Positions 3,456-27,536 of a DNA stretch of 28,738 bases are shown piece by piece. This DNA comes from a virus. The notes beneath the pieces are model-generated. The model ran no database searches and had not been told where the DNA came from. It saw only the letters and a list, made by a program, of their open reading frames with translations. Numbering within the stretch: position 1 is the stretch's first letter; each line of letters starts with the position of its first letter. The translations under genes were made by a program, and so were the position numbers. Where the stretch lies: IMG/VR virus record IMGVR_UViG_3300025132_000212, positions 1 to 28,738 of that record. One strand, written 5' to 3'.

Positions 3456-4763
3456 ATGACTTACAATATACATACAGTCGAATATACTAAACCTATCTTT
3501 GGTATTGAGAATGAATTCAACGCTAGAGGCTTTTTAAGTCGATCCCGTGCGAGGGCTGGCGATGCTGTAGACCTTACCAAAGATGCATTAGACAGGGTTG
3601 GCATTGATTGGGTTAAAGTTGTTGAAGACGGAACAAGTGAAGTAGACGTTGAGCTTGTCTTTCCGCCTGCTGTTGATTGTCCTGAATTTTGGCAAGACTA
3701 TTCTAATGCTATGCAGGTATGTGTTGATCTAGGTTTACGCTATGTGCAGAAATGCGGTTTGCATGTTCATATAGGAACAAGGCGCACAATACCTGCTGTT
3801 AACTCTGTTGAATTTTGGGAAGCTTCAAAAGATAGGGCTAAGGCTGGTATCTTTAAACCTGCTAGCAGGTTTCTAATGGGTGATAACAATGTGATGTCCT
3901 TTCCATTAATAAAAGATATTGTGAGGTTTTACGCTTTAAACCAATCTTTTATTGACGATGCAATGCCATCTAGTCGCGCTAATCAACCTGCAAACAGTAT
4001 GATATCCAGCATAGCATGGATCAATGGCAGTGCTGAATTTGAGCAAACTTCTACTTTAGAAGAGTTAAGCCACCTTATCTACAGACATAACAGACAGAAT
4101 AATCCCGGCTGGACAGCCGATAGTGAATATGGGGGTGTCAAATTTAACGCTGTTAATGTGGGAAGCTTCCAAAGTGGAACTATTGAATTCAGACAGCATC
4201 CTGCCACAATGTCTAGCCAAAAGGCTAAAGATTGGGTGTCATTGCTCACAAACGCTATCGAAGTATGTGACAGGCAACGTCTAACTGATAGCGCGAATAT
4301 TGACCAAACGCCTGTTGTTAGTACTGAACCAGAAACAGTATCAACGCCTGTTTGTCCCTTTAGAGAGACTTCCAATATTGGACAGCTATACACCATGGCA
4401 AGACAAGAGGGCGGCGCTACAGTGCGCGACATGATGCATCAAACAGGCATGGGCAGAAACAACATCGTTGCTAGGTTTACTGATATCAGAAACCGAATAG
4501 GACAAGACGCTGTTTTGACCTATACTCAACAGCACTATAATCACAGATACGGTTCTAGTGGCGGAAGACATGATCTAGGCGGTTATGAAATCCTGACAGA
4601 ATACACTAGACAGGTGACAGTAGCGTCTGCCAATGGTGTCATCAACCGCCCTGAAGACAGCGTGACTGTCAGGGATGATGCACCAACTAGCATCACTCAC
4701 AATCTGTCCTACCAAGTCGCTAGAAATTTTATGCAAGGTCCGGTTACTAGGTTGCGTCACTAG
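3456..4763 (+). CDS. Putative amidoligase with C-terminal winged-helix-like region
   Basis: This 435-aa protein matches the putative amidoligase family (COOH-NH2 ligases related to glutamine synthetase and gamma-glutamyl-cysteine ligase), which use ATP to join a carboxylate to an amine. Visible motifs are FGIENEF (residues 15-21), EDGTSEVDVELVFPP (57-71), CGLHVHIG (100-107) and VKFNAVNVG...TIEFRQH (228-248); the acidic and His residues would hold metal and nucleotide. Residues about 310-355 (GATVRDMMHQTGMGRNNIVA...) read like a winged helix, which would be a fusion. It is alone between P3 and a strong terminator, with no glutamine amidotransferase or cyclotransferase partner beside it as in many amidoligase loci. 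The substrate is unknown: peptide, cell-wall precursor or a modified base are options. Confidence 0.82.
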   Translation: MTYNIHTVEYTKPIFGIENEFNARGFLSRSRARAGDAVDLTKDALDRVGIDWVKVVEDGTSEVDVELVFPPAVDCPEFWQDYSNAMQVCVDLGLRYVQKCGLHVHIGTRRTIPAVNSVEFWEASKDRAKAGIFKPASRFLMGDNNVMSFPLIKDIVRFYALNQSFIDDAMPSSRANQPANSMISSIAWINGSAEFEQTSTLEELSHLIYRHNRQNNPGWTADSEYGGVKFNAVNVGSFQSGTIEFRQHPATMSSQKAKDWVSLLTNAIEVCDRQRLTDSANIDQTPVVSTEPETVSTPVCPFRETSNIGQLYTMARQEGGATVRDMMHQTGMGRNNIVARFTDIRNRIGQDAVLTYTQQHYNHRYGSSGGRHDLGGYEILTEYTRQVTVASANGVINRPEDSVTVRDDAPTSITHNLSYQVARNFMQGPVTRLRH

Positions 4764-20975: not shown

Positions 20976-21260
20976 ATGGCTCGTAAAAGAGACAAGCAGC
21001 CGCCTAAAACTAAAAAGTATTTCCGCTCCACTAAAAGTGGGGCGGGGATGACTAAAGCTGGTGTTGCGCGATATAGGCGTGAAAACCCTGGCTCTAAGTT
21101 AAAAACAGCCGTTACAGGTAAAGTTAAAAAAGGTTCAAAGGCAGCGAAGCGGCGTAAATCATTTTGCGCTCGTAGCGCAGGCCAAATGAAAAAGTTTCCA
21201 AAGGCAGCAAAGAATCCTAATAGCCGTTTGCGCCAAGCAAGGCGGAGGTGGAAATGTTAA
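20976..21260 (+). CDS. Small Lys/Arg-rich protein, KRRKSFCARSAG type, 94 aa
   Basis: This is very basic. KYFRSTKSGAGMTKAGVARY, then RRENPGSKLKTAVTGK, then SKAAKRRKSFCARSAGQMKK, then NPNSRLRQARRRWKC. The KSFCAR...NPNSR.....WKC pattern, with two cysteines, occurs in many marine phages and some large viruses (I recall a domain of unknown function, DUF6321). Basic, Cys-containing and tiny, it could bind nucleic acid, possibly with metal. It is the first of a chain of such genes reaching 22791, mostly overlapping, and overlaps the next gene by 7 bp. Confidence 0.75.
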   Translation: MARKRDKQPPKTKKYFRSTKSGAGMTKAGVARYRRENPGSKLKTAVTGKVKKGSKAAKRRKSFCARSAGQMKKFPKAAKNPNSRLRQARRRWKC

Positions 21261-21505
21261 ATTTTAATACTTTGATTAGTGGTGCTACTTTAGCTTTTAT
21301 TGGCTGGATAGCGTTTTCTGTTGTTGAATTAAAAACAGAAACTGCCGTGATATCTGTTAAAGTAGACCAAAATCATAAACTTTTAGCAGAACTTTGGGAT
21401 TATTACCTACAGGAGAGGGTCAATGCCGATATCGCGTGGACAACTCGCAAGCCAAATTTCAAAACCCCCACAAAAGAAAAAGTGGAGCAAGAAGAGAAAA
21501 GCTAA
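21254..21505 (+). CDS. Small membrane protein, 83 aa
   Basis: The ATG at 21254 is chosen; the in-frame GTG at 21248 lies within the ribosome site GGCGGAGG. One N-terminal membrane helix (about residues 5-25, ISGATLAFIGWIAFSVVELK) is followed by a helical, charged region (QNHKLLAELWDYYLQE) and a basic tail. It overlaps the genes on both sides in other frames (by 7 bp and 83 bp). It is the only membrane protein in the basic-protein cluster. Function is unknown. Confidence 0.65.
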   Translation: MLNFNTLISGATLAFIGWIAFSVVELKTETAVISVKVDQNHKLLAELWDYYLQERVNADIAWTTRKPNFKTPTKEKVEQEEKS

Positions 21506-21578
21506 GATAAACTGCAAACGCCCCAAAGGTTTTAGTCAAAAAGCGTATTGCGCTGGTAAAAAGAAGAGAAAAAAATGA
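21423..21578 (+). CDS. Micro-protein, NCKRPKGFSQKAYCAGKKK type, 51 aa
   Basis: This runs from an ATG inside the previous gene (with AGGAGAGG 5 bp upstream) for 51 codons. The product starts MPISRGQLASQISKPPQKKK and has WSKKRKAKINCKRP then KGFSQKAYCAGKKKRKK. The 'W.....INC..PKGFSQKA.C..KKKR' pattern with two cysteines is one I recall from many marine phage genomes, so despite the 83-bp overlap I regard it as real. It ends in ATGA with the next micro-gene. Confidence 0.75.
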   Translation: MPISRGQLASQISKPPQKKKWSKKRKAKINCKRPKGFSQKAYCAGKKKRKK

Positions 21579-21700
21579 ACAAAAACAAAAGAGCAAAGTT
21601 AAAAAAAGTTGCAAAAGGTTTAACAAAAGCTTCAAAAACTCATGCAAAACAGGCTAAAGCTATAAAAAGTGTGTTAAATGGCAAAAAGAAAAGATCCTAA
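21575..21700 (+). CDS. Micro-protein, LTKASKTHAKQAKAIK type, 41 aa
   Basis: The start lies in an ATGA overlap with the gene before, and the stop lies 20 bp inside the gene after. The product is MNKNKRAKLKKVAKGLTKAS then KTHAKQAKAIKSVLNGKKK, a single basic amphipathic helix. 'L.KASK.HA.QAK.....L' is a motif I recall in small proteins of marine phages. It lacks cysteines, unlike its neighbours. Confidence 0.7.
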   Translation: MNKNKRAKLKKVAKGLTKASKTHAKQAKAIKSVLNGKKKRS

Positions 21701-21974
21701 AGTAGGCACAGGCAAAAAACCAAAAGGGAGCGGGAGAAGACTTTATACCGATGAAAACCCGAAAGATACTGTATCTATAAAGTTTGCTACTCCCGCTGAT
21801 GCTAGGGCTACAGTTTCTAAGGTTAAAAAGATAAACAAATCATTTGCTAGAAAGATACAAATATTAACAGTTGGTGAACAAAGAGCCAAAGTTATGGGCA
21901 AAGCGCAAGTGGCAAGTATATTTAAAAAAGGAAAAGAAAGTTTAAGAAAGGCTAGAAAAAATGCAAAAACGTAG
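21678..21974 (+). CDS. Basic protein, GTGKKPKGSGRRLYTDE type, 98 aa
   Basis: The N-terminus (MAKRKDPKVGTGKKPKGSGR then RLYTDENPKDTVSIKFATPA) matches a pattern conserved in many phages: a loop 'VGTGKKPKGS.RRLYTDE.P.DTV.VKF' followed by basic helices. Here the C-terminal half (KINKSFARKIQILTVGEQRA) is helical and Lys-rich and may differ from the common version. The role is unknown; nucleic-acid binding is plausible from charge. It overlaps the neighbours by 23 bp and 14 bp. Confidence 0.75.
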   Translation: MAKRKDPKVGTGKKPKGSGRRLYTDENPKDTVSIKFATPADARATVSKVKKINKSFARKIQILTVGEQRAKVMGKAQVASIFKKGKESLRKARKNAKT

Positions 21975-22185
21975 CGGAACACCAAAAGGCCTTACTTATT
22001 TTAGGAAGGGTGGGGCGGCTTCTAAAAAGTCAAAAGGCAGTAAAATATGCCCAGAAGGTAAAGCATGGGCAAAACGCACTTTTGATACATATCCAAGCGC
22101 ATATGCAAACCTTGCTGCATCAAAGTATTGCAAAGACCCTAATTACGCTAAGAAGGCCAAGGGCGGTAAAAGAAAGGGTAAGTAA
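21961..22185 (+). CDS. Basic protein, CPEGKAWAKRTFDTYPSAYAN type, 74 aa
   Basis: The conserved core is KICPEGKAWAKRTFDTYPSA followed by YANLAASKYCKDPNY, with two cysteines about 28 residues apart, a small helical domain I have seen in marine phage and some plastid-bearing-host virus proteins. It is flanked by Lys/Gly-rich arms (FRKGGAASKKSKGSK and a KGGKRKGK tail). It overlaps the preceding gene by 14 bp and the next by TAATG. Function is unknown; a DNA-associated or virion role is my inference. Confidence 0.75.
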   Translation: MQKRSGTPKGLTYFRKGGAASKKSKGSKICPEGKAWAKRTFDTYPSAYANLAASKYCKDPNYAKKAKGGKRKGK

Positions 22186-22553
22186 TGGGGGAGCTTAAAA
22201 AATGGCTAAAACAAAATTGGGTTCGCATTGGTACTGATGGAAGTATCAAGGGTAAATGCGGCACATCTAAAGACAAAAAAAACCCAGACCGCTGCCTACC
22301 AGCTTCAAAAGCTAGAAGCCTCTCAAAAGCTGAAAGAGCGTCTACAGCAAGAAAGAAAAAGAGAGCGGGAGCAAAAGGCAAGACAGTGGTATCTAATACA
22401 AAGCAAGCTAAGGTCAGAAACCTCGCAAAGGGAGGTCCAGCTAAACGTCCTTTCAAGGGCAAAAAGGTGGCTGGCACGGCTGTTGCTAGGGGATGCGGTG
22501 TGATAATGTCTAACCGTAGAAAACGCACAAAAGGTGCAGTAACTCAGTCATAA
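22185..22553 (+). CDS. Basic protein with CGTSKDKKNPDRCLP and ARGCG motifs, 122 aa
   Basis: It has two recognisable parts. The first is WVRIGTDGSIKGKCGTSKDK then KNPDRCLPASKARSLSKAER, a two-cysteine motif related in style to the KSFCAR proteins. The second is a C-terminal ARGCGVIMSNRRKRTKGAVT, the 'ARGCGAVM..RRK.T' motif of many marine phage proteins. A Lys-rich linker with GGPAKRPFKGKK joins them and resembles the tail motif of genes 9073-10466. No enzyme motif is visible. It may be a fusion of two of the small basic modules. Confidence 0.75.
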   Translation: MGELKKWLKQNWVRIGTDGSIKGKCGTSKDKKNPDRCLPASKARSLSKAERASTARKKKRAGAKGKTVVSNTKQAKVRNLAKGGPAKRPFKGKKVAGTAVARGCGVIMSNRRKRTKGAVTQS

Positions 22554-22563
22554 GGAGACTTAA

Positions 22564-22791
22564 ATGGCTATGAAGAAAAAAGGCTACCGTGCTGGTGGTA
22601 AAGTTAAAAAAATGGCTAAAGGCGGAGCCGCTGGTGGCAAAAAAATAAGAAGAATGTCCAAGGGCGGTGCTATGGGCGGTAAAAAAATGCGAATGATGAA
22701 AAAGGGCGGTGCTGCTGGCGGCGCAAGAATGACTGTCGCACAACTTCGTGCTGCTGCTAAAAAGCTAGGATACAAAGTATCTAAAGCTTAA
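22564..22791 (+). CDS. Lys/Gly-repeat protein (KGGAAGGKK repeats), 75 aa
   Basis: Residues about 10-55 carry three tandem copies of an approximately 16-residue unit (AKGGAAGGKKIRRM, SKGGAMGGKKMRMM, KKGGAAGGARM), followed by a short helical end TVAQLRAAAKKLGYKV. The ATG at 22564 follows AAGGAG; ATG 22570 is an alternative. Such Lys/Gly arms resemble histone-tail or collagen-binding low-complexity sequence. It might condense DNA or RNA in the virion or host, but there is no direct evidence. It ends with a TAATG overlap to the next gene. Confidence 0.7.
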   Translation: MAMKKKGYRAGGKVKKMAKGGAAGGKKIRRMSKGGAMGGKKMRMMKKGGAAGGARMTVAQLRAAAKKLGYKVSKA

Positions 22792-23468
22792 TGCCATATT
22801 TATATAGCAATGTTCCCTACTTTAAGGCATGGGTGCGGCGCGAATATACTCATAACCATGAAGACTATTATGGTGAGTTTTTGCACGCGATGGTCGTTGG
22901 GGTAACGTCCATGCCTAACAGATGTCTGAGTTTCCAAGTTATATTTACTGGAAGTGAAGCAGAAGGTGAGGAAGAAGATACGGTACATGGAGGTGCAATG
23001 TGGGCTAGAATGCCTATAACCGCTCTAGTTGCTGATATACCTTTAGAGGAATGGCCTGAACCAATGAACACATATGACGCTCAACCTTGGGATTGTTCAT
23101 CACATAACCATGCTGTTTATGTGATAGATAGAGCTACGCCCTGCCCTTGGTTGGCTAAAATAGACAGTGAGTTTTTTCCTGCAAAATATCTTTTTACAGT
23201 AGATTACTCCGAATCTGAGATAGCAGATGATCCAGCGCAGCATAAACAAAGTCATGTTTTGCAACTTCTTGATGCTGGTGAATGGACAGGAAACATCGTT
23301 GCTTTGCCTAACAATCGTGTAAGAGTTACACACCCTGCTTGGTTTGAAACAGGTGAAGGTGCGCCACACTTCAAGCCTTCTCAGCATATACACTATTCAA
23401 AAAGTGATTTAGACTATACACTAGATGTAAATAGGATATTTGATAACCTTTACAATGAGGAAGAGTGA
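22791..23468 (+). CDS. Conserved phage hypothetical protein, 225 aa
   Basis: The sequence begins MPYLYSNVPYFKAWVRREYT, with GEFLHAMVVGVTSMPNRCLS, FQVIFTG, HGGAMWARMPITALV and DAQPWDCSSHNHAVYVIDRA. It is soluble and rich in aromatic and His residues. I recall this protein as conserved in marine phages next to the connector genes but know no function. It is coupled by TAATG to the repeat protein and by TGATG to the gp4-like protein. A role in head completion or as a small enzyme is possible; the His/Cys content is suggestive, not conclusive. Confidence 0.65.
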   Translation: MPYLYSNVPYFKAWVRREYTHNHEDYYGEFLHAMVVGVTSMPNRCLSFQVIFTGSEAEGEEEDTVHGGAMWARMPITALVADIPLEEWPEPMNTYDAQPWDCSSHNHAVYVIDRATPCPWLAKIDSEFFPAKYLFTVDYSESEIADDPAQHKQSHVLQLLDAGEWTGNIVALPNNRVRVTHPAWFETGEGAPHFKPSQHIHYSKSDLDYTLDVNRIFDNLYNEEE

Positions 23469-24136
23469 TGGCTGTATCAGGCTCAACCGATTTTGAATTA
23501 GATGTATCTGATTACATTGAAGAAGCCTTCGAGCGCTGTGGTTTAGAGGTTAAGACAGGTTACGACCTTAAAACAGCCAAGCGCTCGATGAACCTCATGT
23601 TTGCAGAGTGGGCAAACAGAGGCCTTAACCAATGGACCATAGTTCAAAGAACAATATCACTTACCGCAGGAACCAGCAGTTATACGCTTGGATCTGACGT
23701 TATTGATGTTTTGTCTGCTATTGTTCGCAGAAGCGGGACAGACATTAGTATGTCTAAAATTAGTCGTGATGAATATTTGAACATTCCAGAAAAAACCACT
23801 CAAGGCAGGCCAACACAGTTCTTTATTGACAGGCAAGTAACGCCCACAATAAAAATATGGCCTGCCCCTGAGAATGCTACTGATGTTATCTACTATGATA
23901 CGTTAACTAGAATTGATGATGCGGATACTTTCATTAATACTGTTGATGTTCCATTTAGATTTTATCCATGTTTAGCTGCTGGTTTGGCATACTATTTATC
24001 TATAAAACGTGCGCCAGACCGTATTCAGATGTTAAAAGCTGTTTATGAAGAAGAGTTTGATAGAGCTTTAACAGAAGATAGAGATAGAGCTTCTTTTAAT
24101 GTAGCCCCTAGTTTAAGTTTCTACAGGGTGTCGTGA
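23468..24136 (+). CDS. Head-tail connector / tail accessory factor (gp4-like)
   Basis: This 222-aa helical-then-beta protein resembles P22 gp4-like tail accessory factors. Its opening helices are DYIEEAFERCGLEVKTGYDL then KTAKRSMNLMFAEWANRGLN. Then come a beta region (SYTLGSDVIDVLSAIVRRSG), the IPEKTTQGRPTQFFIDRQ loop, and a C-terminal amphipathic helix (RIQMLKAVYEEEFDRALTED). In P22 this protein binds below the portal and seals packaged DNA. The ATG at 23468 (TGATG) is chosen over GTG 23465. The next gene starts in its stop. Confidence 0.75.
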   Translation: MAVSGSTDFELDVSDYIEEAFERCGLEVKTGYDLKTAKRSMNLMFAEWANRGLNQWTIVQRTISLTAGTSSYTLGSDVIDVLSAIVRRSGTDISMSKISRDEYLNIPEKTTQGRPTQFFIDRQVTPTIKIWPAPENATDVIYYDTLTRIDDADTFINTVDVPFRFYPCLAAGLAYYLSIKRAPDRIQMLKAVYEEEFDRALTEDRDRASFNVAPSLSFYRVS

Positions 24137-24867
24137 TGCCTAAATATGCGGCTGGAAAATACGCATATGGAATATCAGATCGTTCTGGTTTTCGTTATCG
24201 TTTAAGAGACATGCGAAAAGAATGGAACGGATTTCTCGTGGGCAAAGACGAGTATGAGGAGAAGCACCCTCAATTAGAACCTCGTAGACACCCAACAGAT
24301 GCAGAGGCTTTAAGAGATCCGAGGCCAGATACAAATAACATCATTCCTATAACAGCAGCTATACCTTCTTTTAATTTAGAGACATTAGAATTTATCCCTG
24401 TGCCACTTTTATTGGGAAAGGTTGGCACAGTTAGTTTTGGTGGCACTGTTGTAACGCCTACAGACGCTACTGTAAGTGGTGTGTTAGCCACCGCTTCTGT
24501 GGGTACAGTTTCAGTATCTGTAAGCGGGGCTATAGCTCAAACATTTACTGTTACTGTTCAGTCTTACTATGGCGCTAATAAATATTACATTGATGGCTCT
24601 CGTCAAGCTACGGTCACTTTATCTGAAGGCAGCACATATCGTTTTGATCAGTCAGATTCCAGTAATTCAGGGCATCCTTTAAGGCTATCTGCCACATCTG
24701 ATGGCACACATGCTGGCGGCTCAGAGTATACAACAGGAGTTACTACAAATGGCACCCCAGGCTCCTCTGGAGCTTACACACAAATAACTGTGGCCTCTGG
24801 AGCGCCAACTCTTTATTATTACTGCACAAACCACTCTGGTATGGGCGGACAGGCGGATACACCATGA
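24136..24867 (+). CDS. Tail protein with cupredoxin-like domain
   Basis: The N-terminal part (AAGKYAYGISDRSGFRYRLR then DMRKEWNGFLVGKDEYEEKH) is a short structural motif I recall from marine phage connector/tail proteins. A linker with Val/Thr-rich repeats (GTVSFGG, GTVSVSVSG) follows. Residues about 145-243 look like a cupredoxin domain: KYYIDGSRQATVTLSEG, YRFDQSDSSNSGHPLRLSAT, and YYYCTNHSGMGG. His180, Cys230, His233 and Met236 sit as in a type I copper site. Copper binding is not shown. The TGATG start overlap and the ATGA end overlap place it in the connector/tail operon. Confidence 0.72.
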   Translation: MPKYAAGKYAYGISDRSGFRYRLRDMRKEWNGFLVGKDEYEEKHPQLEPRRHPTDAEALRDPRPDTNNIIPITAAIPSFNLETLEFIPVPLLLGKVGTVSFGGTVVTPTDATVSGVLATASVGTVSVSVSGAIAQTFTVTVQSYYGANKYYIDGSRQATVTLSEGSTYRFDQSDSSNSGHPLRLSATSDGTHAGGSEYTTGVTTNGTPGSSGAYTQITVASGAPTLYYYCTNHSGMGGQADTP

Positions 24868-25505
24868 CATATACATTAACAACATTGAAACAAGCAATTC
24901 AAGATTATACAGAAAACAGTGAGACTACTTTTGTTAATAATCTTGATAACTTCATAAAGAACACAGAAGAACGGTTACTGAAACTTATAGATCTTGATTT
25001 TTTTAGAAAAAACGCCACTGCTGCAACCAGTTCAGGTAATAAGTTTTTAGCTATTCCTTCAGATTATTTAGCTTCGTTCTCTCTTTCTTTAATAAAAAAT
25101 AATGAAAATATTTTTCTACTACAAAAGGATGTCAACTTCTTACAAGAGTATACACCAAACCCAGCAACCACAGGAACACCAAAATATTATGGTATTTTTG
25201 ATGTAGATAATTTTATACTAGCCCCGACTCCTGATGCGGCTTACACATGTGAACTTCATTACTACTATAGGCCAGCATCTATTACAGGCAGTGCAGGAAC
25301 TTCTTGGTTTGGGGAAAATGCTCCAGACGCACTTTTATATGGTTGTTTAACTGAGGCTTATGTATTTATGAAGGGTGAACCTGCTTTAAGCCAACAATAT
25401 GAAAAGCGTTTTGTTGAAGCTGTTACTCGTTTAAAGAACTATGGAGAAGGTGTAGAGAACACGGATGCGTATAGAACGGGCTTAGTTAGAACCGCAAGAA
25501 CATAG
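24864..25505 (+). CDS. Tail adaptor-like protein
   Basis: This 213-aa protein has helices TLTTLKQAIQDYTENSETTF and NNLDNFIKNTEERLLKLIDL, then a beta sandwich part (FLAIPSDYLASFSLSLI, YYGIFDVDNFILAPTPDA, YTCELHYYYRPASIT) and a C-terminal helix (PALSQQYEKRFVEAVTRLKN). That order matches connector/adaptor proteins such as the SU10 adaptor or P22 gp4 group. It would sit between portal and tail. Together with the gene at 23468 it gives two connector-like proteins. The exact family is from recall. Confidence 0.75.
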   Translation: MTYTLTTLKQAIQDYTENSETTFVNNLDNFIKNTEERLLKLIDLDFFRKNATAATSSGNKFLAIPSDYLASFSLSLIKNNENIFLLQKDVNFLQEYTPNPATTGTPKYYGIFDVDNFILAPTPDAAYTCELHYYYRPASITGSAGTSWFGENAPDALLYGCLTEAYVFMKGEPALSQQYEKRFVEAVTRLKNYGEGVENTDAYRTGLVRTART

Positions 25506-27032: not shown

Positions 27033-27536
27033 ATGAGCGCGGCTAATGTAACTGGCTGGGGTAGAGGCACTTGGGGCGCAGGTGCGTGGAACCAAGAAGT
27101 TCCTGTTGAACTGACAGGTCTTGCTGGAACAAGCGCACTCGGAACTTTAACAATTGCAACAACAGGTAACATTTCTGTTGGCCTTACTGGTGCTGCTGGA
27201 ACAGCGGCTGTTGGTAGTGCTTTAGCTGGTGCTGGCGCAAGTGTTACTGAGACAGGATTACAGGCAACAGTTAGCTTTGGTGATGAATCAGTTGTGGGAA
27301 CAGCCCTTGTATCACCAACAGGACTTGCTGGAACCAGTGCTGTAGGAACCTCCGTAATAACTACAATTACGGGGGTTGTGGTCACGAGTTCCGAAATGGT
27401 TAGTTTTGTTGGCAATGTTTCAATTCCTGTAGATATTCCTGTAGGATTGTCTGCAACAGGAAATATTGGTACAGTGACCATATGGCAAGAGGTTGTTCCT
27501 GGCGTAACAACAAACTGGATTGAGGTAGCAGCGTAA
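27033..27536 (+). CDS. Gly/Thr/Val repeat tail protein, 167 aa
   Basis: The N-terminus WGRGTWGAGAWNQ is followed by repeats built on GLAGTSALGTLTI, GAAGTAAVGSAL, GLAGTSAVGTSVI, a beta-repeat of about 35-45 residues. This is typical of small tail or fibre-associated proteins with repeated strands. The similarity to the Val/Thr repeats in the cupredoxin-like gene (KVGTVSFGGTVVTPT) suggests shared modules. It is coupled to the fibre gene by a TAATG overlap. No catalytic features are visible. Function is probably structural. Confidence 0.7.
   Translation: MSAANVTGWGRGTWGAGAWNQEVPVELTGLAGTSALGTLTIATTGNISVGLTGAAGTAAVGSALAGAGASVTETGLQATVSFGDESVVGTALVSPTGLAGTSAVGTSVITTITGVVVTSSEMVSFVGNVSIPVDIPVGLSATGNIGTVTIWQEVVPGVTTNWIEVAA

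Follow-up and report, generated by a model that had tools for sequence, protein, structure and literature searches.

A mobile cupredoxin domain with predicted type 1 copper ligands in neck-associated genes of marine phages

The window analysed here, a stretch of 28,738 nucleotides (28.7 kb), is a virus record with terminase, SU10-type portal and capsid genes. Between two genes for SU10-type adaptors lies an open reading frame of 243 codons (ATG at 24136, in-frame GTG at 24133, stop codon ending at 24867), whose product combines an N-terminal module, a flexible linker and a C-terminal domain that resembles copper proteins. The features that concern us, all on the forward strand, are as follows.

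23465..24136, + strand: upstream SU10-type adaptor gene (Pfam PF24175, E=3e-17)
24136..24867, + strand: whole gene P0001, 243 aa (N-terminal module, flexible linker, predicted C-terminal cupredoxin domain)
24136..24360, + strand: N-terminal module, residues 1-75, phrog_28581 (function not assigned; PHROGs E=4e-16)
24361..24534, + strand: linker, residues 76-133, Thr/Gly/Val-rich, low confidence in the full-length AF2 model
24535..24864, + strand: predicted cupredoxin domain, residues 134-243 (AF2, PDB profile search, Foldseek, VIA)
24673..24675, + strand: His180 (GHPL), predicted N-terminal copper ligand, aligned with the plastocyanin ligand His
24823..24825, + strand: Cys230, predicted thiolate copper ligand (profile alignment, conservation, only Cys)
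24832..24834, + strand: His233, predicted copper ligand (profile alignment, conservation)
24841..24843, + strand: Met236, predicted axial ligand, Gln in a sister clade (ligand count in relatives)
24864..25505, + strand: downstream SU10-type adaptor gene (Pfam PF24175, E=1.5e-25)

Because two SU10-type adaptor genes flank the gene, its neighbourhood is a neck block. A preliminary description had placed the domain in a phage tail gene; "tail" claims more than a position between two adaptors supports, and the gene is better called neck-associated. Gene context and annotation are in keeping with a predicted virion structural role. Elsewhere in the window, the gene at 22791-23468 matches phrog_3704, labelled 'ferredoxin' (E=5e-25), a doubtful label given only three cysteines and no Pfam match. 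Between the capsid and neck genes, 20976-22791 holds a series of short ORFs that are very rich in Lys and Arg (94, 98, 74, 122 and 75 aa), possibly encoding DNA-binding or packaged proteins, together with one ordinary 85-aa ORF. An amidoligase-family gene (3456-4763; PF12224, E=2.5e-13) lies upstream of the large terminase gene.

The full-length AF2 model of the protein shows two ordered modules joined by a linker whose residues 91-130 fall below a pLDDT of 50, and this whole architecture is retained by most close relatives. In the N-terminal module, about one third of the aligned relatives (among them L031, L036, L047 and L058) carry two CxxC-type pairs that look like a zinc ribbon, at positions where the window protein has SDRS and VGKD; within the same protein these pairs would be a second metal site that has been gained or lost.

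Residues 134-243 were modelled by AF2 with high confidence (pLDDT 96.4, pTM 0.88), and the fold is similar to that of cupredoxins in both Foldseek and VIA comparisons. The two methods ranked copper nitrite reductase (CuNIR), rusticyanin, amicyanin, pseudoazurin, plastocyanin and laccase domains; Foldseek gave probabilities near 1.0, at E values of only 1e-3, and the best VIA match was 2dv6 with a moderate Z of 8.9 (rmsd 2.5 A over 95 residues), the listed rows being all copper proteins. Fold matches included the azurin loop variants 3fsa and 2fta, whose loops CAAHAAM and CTPHPFM share the C-x2-H-x2-M spacing of the phage CTNHSGM, as well as an amicyanin M98Q variant that parallels a phage clade with Gln at the axial position. 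The same fold was found in two BFVD entries (A0A481Z6J5 and A0A481YVH3), short 'beta-sandwich proteins' from pithovirus/marseillevirus metagenomic genomes.

Sequence comparison required a profile. Searched against the PDB with phmmer, the single sequence gave chance matches only, to antibody heavy chains (E>1), while the matches of a profile built from 71 phage relatives were nearly all to copper proteins: copper nitrite reductase 6hbe was best (E=1.5e-7), plastocyanin 1b3i followed at E=1.5e-4, and pseudoazurin, rusticyanin, auracyanin and amicyanin were also matched. None of the PDB matches listed was a solved phage protein. Against the Pfam model PF00127 (Copper-bind) the window member scored 14.1 bits, under the gathering cut-off of 21.2; 14 of the 71 relatives matched it at E<0.1 (best E=5e-4), and individual relatives gave weak matches to the NCBIfam amicyanin and plastocyanin models. 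Readings as a carbohydrate-binding domain (CBM_4_9) or an Ig-type domain were set aside, their Pfam matches being weak and below cut-off. In the plastocyanin alignment from the profile search, all four copper ligands of plastocyanin stand opposite the phage residues that the preliminary description had read from the letters as a type I set, in the order His...Cys-x-x-His-x-x-Met; the positions it gave, H180 (GHPL) and C230, H233 and M236 (CTNHSGMGG), are exact in the translation, and the confident model with plastocyanin among both profile and fold matches bears out the cupredoxin fold it had proposed. Shuffling the protein 200,000 times produced the C-x2-H-x2-M motif in 0.026% of cases, and the six frames of the window contain it just twice. 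Together, the alignment with type 1 copper proteins, the conservation of the ligands and the confident fold place the motif well beyond chance. The C-terminal part thus looks like a genuine cupredoxin domain with an intact predicted mononuclear type 1 copper ligand set, as judged from sequence and model.

Conservation among relatives had been named at the outset as a check, and the ligands are indeed kept in close homologues, the losses in distant ones being mostly joint. H-C-H-M is present in 278 of 298 distinct domains and H-C-H-Q in another 10. The equivalent of His180 is kept in 291, and the axial residue is Met in 282 and Gln in 10. Seven of the remaining 10 domains lack both Cys and the second His, and six of those seven also lack the first His. 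When the domains are clustered at 80% identity, 96 clusters have Cys together with the second His and 6 have neither; retention or loss is linked across the three residues H, C and H (Fisher p from 4e-7 to 7e-10 on these clusters, in a test that ignores shared ancestry), and the tree calls for about three separate changes. In one further domain (L026), the first His and the Met were altered together (H->D, M->L). Some of the search patterns contained the Cys-His motif, and domains that had not been used to fetch their locus were therefore counted apart: 94 of these 98 are HCHM or HCHQ. Synonymous codons vary freely at the ligand His and Cys. Cys230 is the sole cysteine of the window protein, and many proteins of this architecture likewise have a single Cys, which excludes a disulphide role there. 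The Gln-for-Met clade, which is stellacyanin-like in this respect (L182, L180, L183, L191, L194, L201, L222, L229, L230 and L237), consists mostly of third domains in cyanophage-type proteins of about 1780 residues. PSS2-like phages have cupredoxin proteins that are short or stand alone (L090 and L253-L255), in which His, Cys and His were lost together, and cyanophage PSS2 itself has a stand-alone 112-residue copy, gp080, without the ligands. The high retention of H-C-H-M, the Gln replacements and the joint losses point strongly to selection on the predicted site as a metal site, a conclusion drawn from sequence that falls short of proving copper.

The domain is also mobile. Four relatives (L044, L047, L050 and L058) carry a second cupredoxin domain inserted in one loop of their homologue of the downstream adaptor, and phage 023Pt_psg01 (L082) has the domain fused to its homologue of the upstream adaptor. 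At other loci it is found in repeat proteins related to the window gene at 27033-27536, and long cyanophage proteins contain up to four copies each. A tblastn search of 50,697 phage records matched 325, all marine phages by name, with labels or hosts that include Synechococcus, Prochlorococcus, Pelagibacter, Methylophilales, Roseobacter, and marine or uncultured viruses. Many of these isolate records bear the names of tail fibre, baseplate or virion structural proteins, which supports the occurrence of the same pattern in other marine phage tail proteins, as the preliminary description had it. Genomes were scanned with a profile from an 11-row alignment, the 71-row alignment being too diverse for this purpose. 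All 25 loci recovered lie on marine MAG/SAG contigs, judging by their titles, and nine of the 25 contigs carry the same neck genes, so that no cellular parent gene was identified among them. Plasmids gave no match to the module.

The best reading of these data is a promiscuous decoration or adhesion module of the virion surface with a real type 1-like predicted copper site. On balance we consider it probable that this is a true cupredoxin with type 1 ligands, used as a mobile surface module whose copper site aids virion stability and host contact. Joined at one end or through a loop to proteins of the neck, the baseplate and the fibres, the compact sandwich of beta-strands would project from the particle; it is the architecture that suggests surface exposure and a part in host contact. 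The apo-domain would be assembled in the host cytoplasm. Since cytoplasm is kept free of loose copper, the domain would presumably acquire its copper once the cell has lysed, either from seawater or at the envelope of a host. A Cu-thiolate site could then lock and shape the loop end of the sandwich, and the locked end would serve both the stability of the virion and its contact with the host surface.

The main competing explanation, which we regard as rather unlikely, is that a metal, copper or zinc, does nothing but stiffen the domain; the module would then be a structural element that spaces or stabilises, and neither host contact nor redox chemistry would involve the metal. The modules do sit midway in long structural proteins and inside adaptors, and degenerate copies without ligands persist (for example PSS2 gp080 and S-CREM2 ORF130), which indicates that the fold alone has a use. 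Among the relatives, ORF130 alone could be linked to a published virion proteome, with 24 unique peptides in purified S-CREM2 virions (PMC10665884); as it lacks the ligands, a virion can make use of the fold with no metal bound. Conservation of the site in more than 90% of copies suggests, on the other side, that the metal matters, and the only common axial residues are Met and Gln. Axial Met or Gln marks a preference for copper rather than zinc.

Electron transfer of the plastocyanin kind, in which the module would for example oxidise or reduce a partner on the host surface or in the periplasm during infection, is a weaker reading than that of a decoration or adhesion module with a copper site, and one to which we give little credence. 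The complete type 1 ligand set and the amicyanin-like loop speak for it, as do the photosynthetic hosts of several carriers. Against it, SAR11, Methylophilales and Roseobacter are also among the hosts of carriers, the module is anchored within structural proteins and often present in several copies, and none of the window genes scanned looked like a redox partner. It is equally improbable that packing or a protein-binding role maintains the four residues and that no metal is bound in vivo, in the manner of the ephrins, which use the cupredoxin fold as a copper-free adhesion module: ligand-less family members exist, but His, Cys and His are lost jointly, Gln is the only common replacement of the axial Met, and synonymous codons vary beneath the fixed ligands.

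A broader proposal, which we put forward tentatively and hold to be rather doubtful, is that copper-loaded blue-copper modules are widespread on the exterior of marine tailed phages and that the bound copper takes part in infection. Such copper may act in host contact, in hardening the particle as it leaves the copper-poor cytoplasm, or in redox chemistry at the cell surface, and surface-ocean virions would then hold a store of copper bound to protein that has so far gone unrecognised.

In the open-access literature we found no description of a cupredoxin or type I copper module in a phage virion; papers that combine plastocyanin with tail fibres are, by their titles and abstracts, reviews, genome reports and accounts of host-derived metabolic genes. 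We rate the finding as a known fold and predicted site in a new and widespread setting, the nearest published idea being HxH iron in fibres. If the domain binds copper, it is a metal-dependent virion module distinct from those iron sites, and phage attachment or stability would be tied to trace-metal chemistry. Even without copper, a promiscuous cupredoxin module missed by annotation libraries is now identified. Because the type 1 copper site is well understood and easily assayed, ocean-phage domains now labelled 'hypothetical' or 'tail fibre' could be put to the test with one purified domain.

Among known systems, the phage domain shares with amicyanin, pseudoazurin and plastocyanin (PF00127) its fold, the ligand order His...Cys-x2-His...Met and similarity at the level of sequence profiles. 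The phage loop, C-x2-H-x2-M, is equal in length to that of amicyanin, the shortest natural one. Those proteins are soluble electron carriers of the periplasm or lumen, whereas the phage domain is a tethered part of a structural protein. In the phage domain the first ligand His is followed by Pro and not by the Asn that is usual in plastocyanin and azurin; His-Pro also occurs at this ligand in multicopper oxidases, against the His-Asn of plastocyanin. In this respect the domain resembles the type 1 domains of CuNIR and laccases, which are also its best fold and profile matches, but the phage gene has neither type 2/type 3 copper ligands nor a second enzymatic domain. As beta-sandwich modules that move among the ends and loops of virion proteins, the phage Ig-like and other promiscuous decoration domains are a close parallel; they differ in fold, and the cupredoxin module has a predicted metal site and is essentially confined to marine phages. 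The HxH iron sites of T4 gp37 and of marine phage tail fibres, which underlie the 'Ferrojan horse' idea (PMC11705849), place a metal in a marine phage fibre with a proposed role in host attachment, as the cupredoxin module may do. Those sites are made of His only, bind iron and lie within the fibre, whereas the phage cupredoxin is a one-domain module with a Cys-containing predicted site of the copper type.
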